This document shows, piece after piece, positions 8,767-56,768 of a stretch of DNA of 64,000 nt. The translations under genes and the position numbers were made by a program. The notes under the pieces were generated by a model that searched no databases, was not told where the DNA came from, and saw only the letters and a list, made by a program, of their open reading frames with translations. Source of the stretch: Salipiger pallidus (lineage in GTDB: Bacteria; Pseudomonadota; Alphaproteobacteria; Rhodobacterales; Rhodobacteraceae); assembly GCF_014643635.1 (NCBI RefSeq), contig NZ_BMJV01000006.1, forward strand, positions 124,001 through 188,000, read 5' to 3'. Position 1 is the stretch's first letter. The number at the start of each line of letters is the position of its first letter.

Positions 8767-9041
8767 GTGGAAAACTCTGTTGGACTCTTCGTGGGCCGTT
8801 CTGGGGATGGTTCTGGGGAAAAACCTGCGGACATGCAAGCAGGTGGACAACCCCGATGTTTCACGGAGCGACTCAGTGATTCCTGAGTCTGTGGGAAAGG
8901 ATAACTTCCACATGTGGATGACCCCGGCCAGTGGGGAGTCTTCCCGATTTACTCCCAAGCTTTGCTTAAACCTTCAAACCCCTTATTTTTAAGGGGCATA
9001 ATGCAGGTTTTGGCCGCCTTACCCTGACTCCTCCCACAATC

Positions 9042-9050
9042 TTATCCACA
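9042..9050 (+). promoter_or_regulatory. Consensus DnaA box
   Basis: TTATCCACA is an exact match to the consensus DnaA recognition box. It lies about 60 bases from the AT-rich stretch and 40 bases from the second TCCAC-NN-GTGGA palindrome in the maf-rho gap. Confidence 0.7.
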
Positions 9051-9278
9051 GGCTGATCCCATCGGGACAAGCGGTGCAAAAACAAATAATCCACCGGTGG
9101 ACAGGGTCCCAACGAACAAAATCATCCTTAATCTTAATTCTTAAAATTGGGTTACCCGGTCCCCGAGTCCTCGGCCTCCAGCGCTCACCGGAAAAGATTG
9201 ACTCACCACCCCCTGAGAAGTACCCCACTAGCCGACCCCCGTTCGGGACAGTCGTTTTCCGAAAGACACCATTTGCGA

Positions 9279-11889: not shown

Positions 11890-11905
11890 TGTTTCACGTG
11901 AAACA
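11890..11905. other. parS site 1, across the mnmG translation start
   Basis: TGTTTCACGTGAAACA is a perfect 16-bp palindrome identical to the conserved bacterial parS centromere site bound by ParB. It covers the spacer between the AAGGAG ribosome site and the GTG at 11898 and runs into codon 3 of mnmG. The parA and parB genes lie 2.5-4.3 kb downstream, as expected for a chromosomal partition locus. Confidence 0.95.
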
Positions 11906-53192: not shown

Positions 53193-54740
53193 ATGAGCGG
53201 CTTTGCCCGACGTCGCCTGATCCAGTCCGCCCTCGCGGCCGCCGTCCTTGGCGCGTCGGGGCTTGCCGCCGCACCCGCGCGGTCGGGTGGCACACTGCGC
53301 GCGGGGCTGAGCGGGGCGCATCCCTCGGACAGCTGGGATGCACGCAGGCACATGGGGCTTTTCATGCTGGCCGCCGGGCATGGCGCCGTCTTCGACACGC
53401 TGACCGAGGTCGCCGCCGACGGCAGCCTCCGTGGAGAGCTGGCCACCGACTGGCAGGCGTCCGAGGGCGCGCTCGTCTGGACCATGAGCCTACGCAAGGA
53501 TGTTCGCTTCCACGATGGCACGCCCTTCGTGGCGGATGACGTCATCGCATCGCTGCGCCTTCACGTGGAACCGGGATCGGTGTCGGGGGCCCACCCGCTG
53601 GTGGCCGGCATTGCCCAGACCGAGCGTCTGTCGGATCATCGCCTACGCTTCACCCTTGCCGCGCCGAACGCGGATTTCCCCTGGCTGCTGGCCGATCCGC
53701 GGCTGGTGATCTACCCCTCTGGTCAGATGGTGCGCGCCATGGCCGAGGGTATCGGCACCGGCCTCTACCGGGTCGAACACTTCGAGCCGGGCCGCCGCTT
53801 CATCGGCCGCAGGGTCGAAGCGCATTACAAAGACGGTCAGGCGGGATGGTTCGACAGGCTCGAGTTCACCGCGCTGGGTGATGGCGCGGCACGGGTGTCG
53901 GCGCTGCGGTCGGGGCAGGTGGATACGGTGGACCGGGTGGGTGCGCACCGCGCTGCGCGGCTTGCCACGGACCCGAACCTGCGCTTGCAGGACATCGCCG
54001 GAAACCAGAGTGTCGGGTTTGCCATGCGTACCGCCACCGCGCCCTTCGATGCGCTGCACGTCCGCAAGGCGCTGCGCCACGCCATCGACCGCGAGGCGAT
54101 CCTCGCGCAGGTGCTGAAAGGTCATGGCCGCATCGCGGCAGACAGCCCCATCGGCCCCGGAAACCAATACGCCGCCGAGCTCTCGCCTGCGCCCTTCGAC
54201 CCGGATCTTGCCCGCCATCACCTGCGCATGGCCGGCCTCGAGGGTCTGAGCCTGCCCTTGTCGGTCTCTGACGCCGCCTTCGACGGGGCCGAGGAGGCCG
54301 CAGCTCTCTTCGCTGCTTCTGCGGCCACCGCCGGGATTGAGATCACCCCACAGCGCGAGCCCTCCGAGAGCTACTGGCAGGAAAGCTGGCAACGCCGCCC
54401 CTTCGCCGCGAGCGCATGGTCGGGCCGGGTGACCGAGGACTGGATTTTGTCAACTGCGCTGCAGCACGGTGCCCCGTGGAACGATACCCAATGGGGCATG
54501 GAGCAAAGCCCGCGCTTCCAGTCTCTCCTGTCCGAAGCCCGCTCGGAACTCAATGGCACCCGCCGCCGTGGGCTTTATGCCGAGATGCAGCAGATCCTGT
54601 GTGACGAGGGTGGCCTGTTGCTGCCGGTCTTTGCAAATCACCTGCAGGCCACCGGCGAGCGGGTGGCAACCCCGGCCACCATCGGCAGTGCCATGGCCAT
54701 GGACAATGCCCGTTTCGCGGAACGTTGGTGGCGCGCCTAG
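53193..54740 (+). CDS. Orphan peptide/nickel-type ABC substrate-binding protein
   Basis: This 515-residue protein belongs to solute-binding family 5 (peptides, opines, nickel). A Tat-like signal (FARRRLIQSALAAAVLGASG) precedes GGTLRAGLSGAH. The family pieces are complete: TDWQASEGALVWTMSLRKDV near 85-105, the conserved FHDGTPFVADDV and the C-terminal lobe. There are no permease or ATPase genes beside it, unlike usual family 5 operons, so it may feed a transporter encoded elsewhere. It is 34 bases after pip and may be co-transcribed. Confidence 0.87.
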   Translation: MSGFARRRLIQSALAAAVLGASGLAAAPARSGGTLRAGLSGAHPSDSWDARRHMGLFMLAAGHGAVFDTLTEVAADGSLRGELATDWQASEGALVWTMSLRKDVRFHDGTPFVADDVIASLRLHVEPGSVSGAHPLVAGIAQTERLSDHRLRFTLAAPNADFPWLLADPRLVIYPSGQMVRAMAEGIGTGLYRVEHFEPGRRFIGRRVEAHYKDGQAGWFDRLEFTALGDGAARVSALRSGQVDTVDRVGAHRAARLATDPNLRLQDIAGNQSVGFAMRTATAPFDALHVRKALRHAIDREAILAQVLKGHGRIAADSPIGPGNQYAAELSPAPFDPDLARHHLRMAGLEGLSLPLSVSDAAFDGAEEAAALFAASAATAGIEITPQREPSESYWQESWQRRPFAASAWSGRVTEDWILSTALQHGAPWNDTQWGMEQSPRFQSLLSEARSELNGTRRRGLYAEMQQILCDEGGLLLPVFANHLQATGERVATPATIGSAMAMDNARFAERWWRA

Positions 54741-54766
54741 AGGCTGCCGCCGGACCGCTTCCGGCG

Positions 54767-54790
54767 GGCGTATTTTTCAAGAGAAGAAGA
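54767..54790 (+). repeat. Intergenic 3' motif, copy B (GGCGTA-N10-GAAGAAG)
   Basis: GGCGTA (54767-54772), ten bases, GAAGAAG (54783-54789), A. Identical to copy A at 22 of 24 positions. It lies 27 bases after the binding-protein gene in its sense direction. Confidence 0.6.
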
Positions 54791-54822
54791 CTAGGCGTGT
54801 CGCCTCCTCCGGCGGCAGCGCA

Positions 54823-54838
54823 TTAAGTTTGGCTTAAC
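54823..54838 (+). promoter_or_regulatory. CtrA-like box, outlying repeat copy R0
   Basis: TTAA-GTTTGGC-TTAAC fits the CtrA recognition pattern TTAA-N7-TTAAC exactly. It shares 14 of 18 bases with repeat R5 of the array at 55334-55351. Binding is inference. Confidence 0.4.
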
Positions 54839-55188
54839 CTAGGTGGCCGATCCCGCCGCCGCGACCACTGCGAGCGGCCTGCTTCAGCACATCAGGGCGG
54901 CTTGCACTGATCGAGGGGGCTCGGGGCCTGTCCTCGATACAACGCTCGTTGGTTGAACACAGGCTGCAGGTCTTTCAGCTCCGGCTTGCCGCGTCTTGAG
55001 CATGTGGCTTTGACGTCTAAGAAGGATGTCCGTGGGCCTGCCGATAGCTGTCGGTCAAGGCGCATGGCCTTGTTTTCATCCTTCTGGCCAAGCACCGCCT
55101 CGGTTTTTTGGGTGATGACAGGATCACGGCGACCGGTGAAGAATGGTGTGGGCCCGTCAGCTGCATGTCATGCTCGGCGGTGCTTTCT

Positions 55189-55377
55189 TTTAACCTTCAT
55201 GTGAACAAGCAAGCCATTGGCGGGTTTAACCTTGGTGTAACCCTGAGTGGCCACTAAGACTCGGTTTTGGTGTAATGAAGCAAGTCGACACCGAAATTTA
55301 ACCTTGTTGTAACCAACTGGTTCGCGCCAAGGCTTTAACCTTGGCTTAACCAAGCGCAGTTTAACCTTCGTGTAACG
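55189..55377. repeat. Array of degenerate 18-bp repeats, period near 36 bp
   Basis: Unit starts: R1 55189, R2 55225, R3 partial at about 55260, R4 55297, R5 55334, R6 55360. Consensus TTTAACCTTNGTGTAACC. R2, R4 and R6 differ at few positions (R2 TTTAACCTTGGTGTAACC, R4 TTTAACCTTGTTGTAACC, R6 TTTAACCTTCGTGTAACG). R5 reads TTTAACCTTGGCTTAACC and R1 TTTAACCTTCATGTGAAC; R3 keeps only the right half (TTTTGGTGTAATG). Starts are 36, 35, 37, 37 and 26 apart, so repeats of 18 alternate with unrelated 18-19-base gaps. Each unit contains TNTAACC twice, 11 bases apart. It lies downstream of hslU and no known gene sits beside it. Confidence 0.8.
55335..55350 (+). promoter_or_regulatory. CtrA-like box in repeat R5
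   Basis: TTAA-CCTTGGC-TTAAC matches TTAA-N7-TTAAC exactly. The neighbouring R2, R4 and R6 units match with a single base change, GTAAC for TTAAC. Rhodobacterales carry CtrA, but whether it binds here is untested. Confidence 0.4.
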
Positions 55378-55403
55378 AAAAGGGGCAGGCACCGAGCCCG
55401 CCC

Positions 55404-55426
55404 CTTCTTCTTTTACCAACTACGCC
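55404..55426 (-). repeat. Intergenic 3' motif, copy C (GGCGTA-N10-GAAGAAG)
   Basis: On the minus strand GGCGTA (55426-55421), ten bases, GAAGAAG (55410-55404). It lies 38 bases after hslU in its sense direction. The ten-base middle differs from copies A and B. Confidence 0.5.
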
Positions 55427-55463
55427 GGGGAGCGCGAGGGGCTGGCCCCTCGTCTTGGCGACA

Positions 55464-56768
55464 TCACAGCACGTAGCGGCTGAGGTCCGTGGATTTCGTC
55501 AACTCTCCCAGATAGGTCTCGACGAAGGCCGCATCGACGACGATCTCCTCGCCAGCGCGATCCGGCGCGTTGAAGGAAAGCTCTTCGAACACCCGCTCCA
55601 TCACCGTGTAGAGACGGCGGGCGCCGATATTCTCGATGCTATCGTTGACCTCGGCGGCGATGCGGGCCAGCGCGTGGATGCCGTCGTCTGTGAAGGTGAC
55701 CGTGACCTCTTCGGTGGCCATCAGCGCCGTGTACTGGCGGGTGAGGGCGTTGTCCGTTTCGGTCAGGATGCGGACGAAATCATCCTCGGTCAGTGCCCGC
55801 AGGTTCACCCGGATCGGCAGGCGACCCTGAAGCTCCGGCAGCAGGTCCGACGGCTTGGCGATGTGGAACGCTCCCGACGCGATGAAGAGGATGTGGTCGG
55901 TCTTTACCGGCCCATGTTTGGTGCTCACGGTGGTGCCTTCGATCAGTGGCAGCAAGTCGCGCTGCACGCCTTCGCGGGACACGTCGCCGCCACGGGTTTC
56001 CTGCCGCGCCGCAACCTTGTCGATCTCGTCGAGGAAGACGATGCCATTCTGCTCGACCGACTCCACGGCGGCCTTCTTGACCACCTCGTCATCAAGCAGC
56101 TTGTCCGCCTCTTCCTGGATCAGGATCTCGTAGCTTTCGGCTACGCGCAGTTTCTTGCGGGTCGTGCGCCCGCCAAAGGCCTTCCCGAAGATGTCACCGA
56201 GGTTCATCATCCCCATCTGACCGGGCTGGCCGGGGATCTCCATTCCGCCAAGGGGGTTGGTGGTGTCGGCCACCTCGAGCTCGATCTCGGTGTCGTCCAG
56301 TTCGCCGTTGCGCAGCTTCTTGCGGAACATCTCGCGGGTGCTCTCGCGGGCGTCGGAGCCGGCAATGGCCTCGATCACGCGTTCTTCGGCGGCCTTGTGG
56401 GCCGAGGCCTTCACGTCCTCGCGCATGTATTCACGGGTGAGTGCAATGGCGCTGTCCACGAGATCGCGCACGATCTGTTCAACATCACGGCCCACATAGC
56501 CCACTTCGGTGAACTTGGTGGCCTCGACCTTGATGAAGGGGGCGCGGGCGAGTTTTGCGAGGCGGCGGGAGATCTCGGTCTTGCCGACGCCGGTGGGGCC
56601 TATCATCAGGATGTTCTTGGGATAGACCTCTTCACGCAGGTCGGGACCGAGCTGCTTGCGGCGCCAGCGGTTGCGCAGGGCCACGGCCACGGCGCGCTTG
56701 GCGTCCTGCTGGCCGATGATGAACCGGTCGAGCTCCGAGACGATCTCGCGGGGGGTCAGGTCAGTCAT
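55464..56768 (-). CDS. hslU: ATP-dependent protease ATPase subunit HslU
   Basis: This 434-residue AAA+ unfoldase feeds HslV. Walker [18 protein letters not shown] lies near 55-71, with the pore-related GYVGRDV near 92 and Walker [13 protein letters not shown] near 247; the C-terminus ends YVL, close to the usual HslV-docking tail. The I-domain insert ([16 protein letters not shown]) is present. It follows hslV by 11 bases. Downstream lies the repeat-bearing interval. Confidence 0.96.

Follow-up and report, generated by a model that had tools for sequence, protein, structure and literature searches.

A cluster of predicted CtrA boxes in a convergent gene gap of Salipiger pallidus

Results

A convergent gap beside hslU carries a run of 18-bp direct repeats

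We analysed a stretch of 64,000 nucleotides (the window) from contig NZ_BMJV01000006.1 of Salipiger pallidus, a genome of 4.44 Mb in 23 contigs. An earlier note on this DNA had placed an array of short repeats in a convergent gap next to hslU, and we confirmed that the array lies where a substrate-binding protein gene and hslU face each other across a gap of 723 bp (Table 1). The hairpin at 55380..55406, which was missed by a simple terminator scan, has TTCTTCTTTT next to it on its plus side. Both ends of the gap (54743-54789 and 55396-55452) consist of a terminator-like repeat of the form GGCGTATTT...GAAGAAG that is dispersed across the genus, where it occurs alone or as a hairpin. The arms 54767-54789 and 55404-55426 are complementary and are close neighbours in locus L099; because such arms also occur singly at other places, we dropped the idea of an insertion into a palindrome and claim no insertion.

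We found no recognisable gene in the gap, and rejected that possibility, since none of the nine open reading frames (ORFs) in or reaching into it matched Pfam at E ≤ 1. No NCBIfam match was obtained for three of the nine. A 38-aa ORF (54884-55003, minus strand) had a weak match to PHROG 30065, a family of unknown function (E 0.0023); among the other eight, one had two PHROG matches (E 0.3 and 0.45) and seven had none. The ORF at 55168-55419 (minus strand), in which the boxes are translated as YTKVK-like repeats, matched nothing.

Table 1. Positions of genes, boxes and hairpins in and around the convergent gap (window coordinates; rank, position in the scan of the window with the full matrix).
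Feature	Position	Strand	Remarks
ABC transporter substrate-binding protein gene (SBP_bac_5)	53193..54740	+	ORF and Pfam match
Terminator-like hairpin following the substrate-binding protein gene	54747..54767	+	terminator scan and folding
Lineage-specific core of the gap	54790..55403		57% GC, against 64% for the window
Outlying CtrA-type box	54822..54839	+	perfect TTAA-N7-TTAA; 367 bp upstream of the array; rank 3
Box 1	55189..55206	+	left half intact, right half decayed; rank 19
Box 2	55225..55242	+	rank 4
Box 3	55260..55277	+	decayed; rank 1819
Box 4	55297..55314	+	rank 2
Box 5	55334..55351	+	sole perfect TTAACC-N5-TTAACC found in the genome; rank 1
Box 6	55360..55377	+	rank 7
Hairpin that could end transcription both ways	55380..55406		-18.5 kcal/mol on the plus strand, -24.4 on the minus strand
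Hairpin just after hslU	55435..55452	-	belongs to the genus-wide dispersed repeat
hslU, convergent neighbour	55464..56768	-	matched by a record annotated hslU

The array contains five 18-bp boxes (1, 2, 4, 5 and 6), all on the plus strand, that differ from TTTAACCTTNGTGTAACC at no more than three positions. Shuffled sequence is expected to yield 0.01 such copies, and none of 100 shuffles yielded five. The earlier note had counted six degenerate copies; the sixth (box 3, best placed at 55260) is badly decayed, with 9 of 17 fixed letters retained, and is probably no longer a functional site. With box 3 placed there, the start-to-start intervals are 36, 35, 37, 37 and 26 bp, such that the proposed spacing of about 36 bp describes four of the five intervals but not the last. 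Random placement put four of five intervals inside a 3-bp range in 1.3% of trials, in a test that was devised post hoc with the spacing already known. The gaps between successive boxes measure 18, 17, 19, 19 and 8 bases, rather than the 18-19 bases first described; they are mostly dissimilar, as had been claimed, with the exception of those after boxes 1 and 3, which are 0.59 identical and have AAGCAAG in common. Mean identity is 0.82 among the boxes (five boxes, box 3 left out) and 0.33 among the gaps (four gaps without the 8-base one, compared over their first 17 bases), as if the boxes had been kept and the gaps had not.

Each box is a direct repeat of 7+4+7 architecture with an 11-bp period, consistent with the earlier description of half-sites 11 bases apart, and in most boxes the right half-site reads GTAACC. 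All seven TTAACC words in the 723-bp gap are on the plus strand. The 11-bp distance places both halves of a box on one face of the helix; by contrast, the 36 bp between adjacent boxes correspond to ~3.4 helical turns, which places neighbouring boxes on different faces.

The boxes match the CtrA motif

CtrA is an OmpR-family response regulator and a master regulator in these bacteria. The CtrA site published for alphaproteobacteria is TTAA-N7-TTAA (PMC6180460; PMC9437464), and the unit of the array, TTAACC-N5-TTAACC, is this site plus flanks. Allowing one mismatch, we found TTAA-N7-TTAA at nine places in the window, against 1.26 expected; five of these, two perfect and three with one mismatch, are inside the convergent gap, and the two perfect ones are the only ones in the window. 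The outlying box contains one of them (54823-54837), which lies outside the coordinates of the earlier note and had been missed.

In the whole genome, TTAACC-N5-TTAACC occurs within one mismatch at 15 places, three of which, including the only perfect match, are in the array. Three of the twelve places outside the array precede flagellin, radC and recA genes (names by our own reading), and nine could be tied to no CtrA function. Within two mismatches there are 96 places, against 73 for the reversed pattern, indicating that most weak genome-wide matches are due to chance. The genome has 17 matches to PF00486, 16 of them above the cut-off. One of these proteins, the only one of the 17 scanned and chosen by eye, reaches 433.2 bits against the NCBIfam model NF045991 (RespRegCtrARhodob; cut-off 350), and we conclude that CtrA is encoded.

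The array resembles CtrA-type promoters of flagellin and radC genes in the genus

We next compared the array with CtrA-type promoters in the genus, taking the 250 bp upstream of recA, flagellin and radC genes and seeking TTAA-N7-TTAA within one mismatch. For recA, a box was present ~150 bp upstream in all 19 loci used (shuffle mean 1.4), a set that left out a partial match in one genome (G019) and a second, weaker match in another (G007). For flagellin, 21 loci were tried and seven were dropped because the start was not found; a box ~110 bp upstream was present in 8 of the remaining 14 (shuffle mean 0.5), and three of the six loci without a box are second copies. All three radC loci had an upstream box. 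The radC sites and the recA and flagellin sites of S. pallidus itself were all found with a TTAACC pattern, and hence are not independent. Of 18 exact matches in sister species, five (in G005, G008, G009, G010 and G012) lie ~100 bp before a flagellin match and two precede radC. Because TTAA-N7-TTAA is its own reverse complement, we judged direction from the AACC words, which are on the strand of the gene in 28 of 30 promoter boxes and leave two undecided.

A matrix was built from 18 distinct recA, flagellin and radC sites, none of them from the array, and used to score 127,966 window positions on both strands; like the two smaller matrices described below, it was seeded with TTAA-N7-TTAA and used sites that had been picked by that pattern. 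Boxes 5, 4, 2 and 6 ranked 1, 2, 4 and 7, and the outlier at 54822 ranked 3. With a 13-site matrix limited to recA of relatives and to those flagellin loci that were not among the exact matches, the same boxes ranked 2, 3, 7 and 14 and the outlier ranked 1. With a matrix of nine recA sites from relatives, they ranked 20, 23, 112 and 265, the outlier ranked 10, and the two remaining boxes ranked 2059 and 14613. The lower ranks on the recA-only matrix suggest that the array resembles the flagellin and radC sites more closely than the recA sites. Regulation of recA has been described in two ways: in D. shibae the gene is attributed to LexA (PMC6473078), and it is also listed among CtrA-controlled genes (PMC8116508). 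In most recA loci (L282-L300) a conserved stretch near TTGAAATGTTC, resembling an SOS element, follows the CtrA-type box. In seven flagellin loci (L305-L309, L311, L312) a conserved stretch near CCAATCTCTCGTGRTACGG comes right after the box, and is likely the -10 region.

The motif, the likeness to CtrA-type promoter sites of the genus and the presence of ctrA in the genome together indicate that the array is very probably a cluster of CtrA boxes. By this reading of the sequence, four good boxes and a weak one are found in 189 bp, with one good box 367 bp upstream, all in one direction. The earlier suggestion of a protein-bound regulatory element is thereby supported, and the predicted protein can be named.

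Direct repeats arranged in this way are common across the OmpR family, and the genome has 16 above-threshold PF00486 matches, such that the array might instead bind another regulator of this family, e.g. PhoB or CenR. We consider this improbable, since the array fits the flagellin/recA/radC matrix; PhoB and CenR were the alternatives compared. CTGTCAT-type boxes (at least 11 of 14 letters), which are unlike the array, precede pstS (identified by our own reading) in five of nine regions from the genus, the region of S. pallidus not being among the five, and no CtrA-like site above the cut-off lies within ~120 bp of pstS there. We rejected a Pho box on these grounds. We also rejected a CenR site: the one published for R. 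sphaeroides, TGA-N8-TGA (PMC9275681), differs from the array box.

Most predicted start points fall inside the next box or the hairpin

In R. sphaeroides, CtrA promoters start transcription 23-24 nt after the site (PMC6180460). Start points predicted at this distance in the array fall mostly inside the next box; the one after box 5 falls in box 6, and the one after box 6 falls inside the hairpin at 55380-55406. Only two start points are not covered by a good box, namely that after the outlier and that after box 2, which may be free because it falls in the decayed box 3. Inspecting the sequence by eye, we saw the element conserved after the flagellin boxes after none of the array boxes. As regards a gene for the boxes to drive, downstream on the plus strand there is only the hairpin, followed by the antisense strand of hslU. 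Because most predicted start points lie within the next box or the hairpin, and neither a flagellin-like element nor a gene or RNA family was found, we infer that CtrA may be bound here without starting a gene, and we favour a CtrA-binding platform over a promoter.

The main rival reading, which had been raised in part by the earlier note as a nearby untranslated RNA, is that CtrA activates, through these boxes, an untranslated RNA on the plus strand, running from box 2 or from the outlier at 54822 to the hairpin at 55380-55413, or an antisense RNA of hslU. The boxes do point in the plus direction, just as AACC words lie on the strand of the gene in nearly all of the promoter boxes; the hairpin with its adjoining TTCTTCTTTT lies directly past box 6; and two start points are uncovered. 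There is one sigma-70-like site, at 55115-55144 on the plus strand (9 of 12 matches; shuffles give 0.1), and the predicted fold of the plus strand of the core is more stable than those of all 20 shuffles (z -2.5, compared with -1.7 for the minus strand). However, Rfam gave no match up to E = 1 in 54301-56100, no promoter in the gap was convincing, the element seen at flagellin genes is missing by eye, a terminator-like site at 55056-55072 on the plus strand would cut a transcript from the outlier, and the hairpin could equally be the terminator of hslU itself. Weighing these points, we regard such an RNA as rather doubtful.

The array is distant from the likely origin and matches no plasmid or phage record

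The earlier note had described the array as iteron-like, a description that holds for the layout only. Allowing one mismatch, we found no DnaA box in 54741-55463. The skew minimum (9963) and a perfect DnaA box (9042) place the likely oriC near 9 kb of the window, ~46 kb from the array. These observations led us to reject an origin of the Cori type. At the likely oriC (8913-9260) there is also a DnaA box with one mismatch at 8913, together with a run of TTAA words; perfect parS sites are at 11890 and 13798. Searched at the "distant" sensitivity setting against 50,697 phage and 72,556 plasmid records, the core had no match. A plasmid iteron array was rejected because the core matched no plasmid and its ORFs belong to no Pfam family. 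When 10 kb of the window were searched separately against plasmids, 37 records were returned, all with short matches that covered at most 6% of the query.

The core could also be the remnant of a phage or mobile element that brought in a cluster of CtrA sites. Phages with dense TTAA-N7-TTAA gaps have been published (PMC9437464), the core is lower in GC than the window and was not seen in sister species among the matches listed, and the 38-aa ORF resembles PHROG 30065. Against this, the phage and plasmid records gave no match, none of the nine gap ORFs matched Pfam, eight of them had no PHROG match better than E 0.3, and alignments of the core elsewhere in its own genome reached at most 45 bases among the matches listed. 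We consider such a remnant unlikely.

The cluster was not seen in the sister species searched

We observed no box cluster within 1.5 kb of hslU in any of 29 relatives, including 19 sister species; three of the 29 had one isolated weak match each. The two-box pattern without mismatches occurred in one of 20 genomes of the genus, that of S. pallidus itself. A stricter two-box form was present in two of the 394 family genomes; besides S. pallidus this was G147, in which the arrangement is different: on contig C22 (L107, 1999-2037), four TTAACC half-sites in 11-bp steps lie shortly before an ORF.

Among the matches listed, no alignment of the core (54800-55385) with any of 19 sister species was longer than 47 bases. 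The flanking gene pair is convergent in 17 of the 19, with a gap of 179-230 bp in four and 836-1358 bp in 13. In these 13 of the 17 (L084-L088, L091-L098) the gap contains an extra ORF beginning (M/V)KRS, which is missing in S. pallidus. We rejected the possibility that the core is a remnant of this ORF, since tblastx (E ≤ 0.01) returned only the arms and scattered stretches of 14-36 residues. On the alignments obtained, the core is either new to the S. pallidus lineage or retained in it alone. The earlier note had named two findings that would count against its reading: random spacing, which was not found, and a lack of conservation in sister species, which was. Because the cluster was not seen in the sister species searched, conservation gives no support to a function.

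This absence would also fit a neutral relic: a box multiplied by local duplications within idle DNA, its copies now degenerating without consequence for the cell. Consistent with such a history, box 3 has degenerated badly, half of the right half-site of box 1 is gone, and the gap after box 1 resembles that after box 3. Recent neutral duplication would not, however, yield four boxes near the consensus separated by mostly dissimilar gaps, and we judge a relic to be quite unlikely.

Discussion

We propose that a dimer of phosphorylated CtrA would bind each box through its two half-sites, which lie one turn apart, that neighbouring boxes would be occupied on different faces of the helix, and that this binding would start no gene. 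The array would then be a local platform that takes up CtrA (a sink), blocks polymerase between the convergent genes (a roadblock), or both. As a whole, the reading of the array as a CtrA-box cluster that acts as such a platform seems to us somewhat more probable than its negation; that a sink or roadblock is the main effect is a tentative proposal, to which we give less than even weight. The available data fit sink and roadblock equally.

Clusters of CtrA sites have been described before, and we compared the array with them. The Caulobacter origin (Cori) has five TTAA-N7-TTAA CtrA sites in one intergenic region (PMC1914354) and is similar to the array in this respect. By contrast, the CtrA sites of Cori are spread over an origin that has five DnaA boxes as well as an IHF site, while the S. 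pallidus gap has no DnaA box, and boxes 1-5 differ from Cori in being near-regular in spacing and in pointing one way. LPEG phages, such as Brevundimonas phage vB_BsubS-Delta with 12 TTAA-N7-TTAA sites in a 1,312-bp gap (PMC9437464), likewise have dense sites in a gap. The genes beside the gap of vB_BsubS-Delta are divergent, and a small ORF directly follows its cluster; the S. pallidus gap is convergent, chromosomal and has no ORF of a known family. Single CtrA promoters in the Rhodobacterales (fla2 of R. sphaeroides; flagellin and recA in the genus) have the same kind of box, and in the genus the box keeps the same direction towards its gene. However, those promoters have one site before a gene, whereas the array lines up several sites ahead of a terminator-like hairpin. 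The earlier note knew of no such element at this place; clusters of TTAA-N7-TTAA are in fact published for the Caulobacter origin and for phages, but in the parts consulted of the open-licence literature that we searched, no CtrA cluster was described in a convergent chromosomal gap without a gene to drive. The array is therefore a new placement of a known kind of CtrA-site cluster.

CtrA sites are usually read as parts of promoters or origins. If our reading is true, a dense, same-direction cluster with neither a gene nor an origin would lend itself to the question of whether spare sites buffer a master regulator in bacteria. In E. coli, datA titrates DnaA. A promoterless array ~46 kb from oriC might be a chromosomal CtrA buffer gained in one species only, an idea that we offer as a speculation with little probability. 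On such a model, the array would be doubled together with the origin region early in replication and would soak up CtrA, and could set a threshold for, or the cell-to-cell spread of, genes for motility, gene transfer and repair.

The motif itself calls for some caution, since direct repeats of TTAACC may stand for CtrA sites in alphaproteobacteria but for Pho boxes in cyanobacteria. Cyanobacterial Pho boxes, the sites of SphR, are CTTAACCT direct repeats with an 11-bp period (PMC1906773); their half-site is nearly identical to that of the array and the period is the same. They belong, however, to another phylum and another regulator, and five of nine pstS regions in the genus of S. pallidus have CTGTCAT-type boxes instead. 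A pattern search of genome contigs gave 39 stretches, none of them titled Rhodobacterales; two were from alphaproteobacterial bins (L187, L188), and the L187 stretch is a run of 11-bp repeats. A pattern search of viral contigs gave 75 stretches, and pieces of two match a cyanophage. No relative of the substrate-binding protein was found in the viral contigs. Eleven viral contigs (L214, L228, L232, L250, L253, L266, L270, L273, L274, L277 and L278) have clusters of TTAACC-N5-TTAACC, with 8 to 30 matches each when two mismatches are allowed, mostly in 11-bp steps. These clusters resemble cyanobacterial Pho-box arrays (CTTAACCT) on cyanophages, as judged from the two of the eleven that were searched: L277 matches Synechococcus phage S-CBS4 with 71% identity over 8% of the piece searched, and a protein of L232 also matches this phage.
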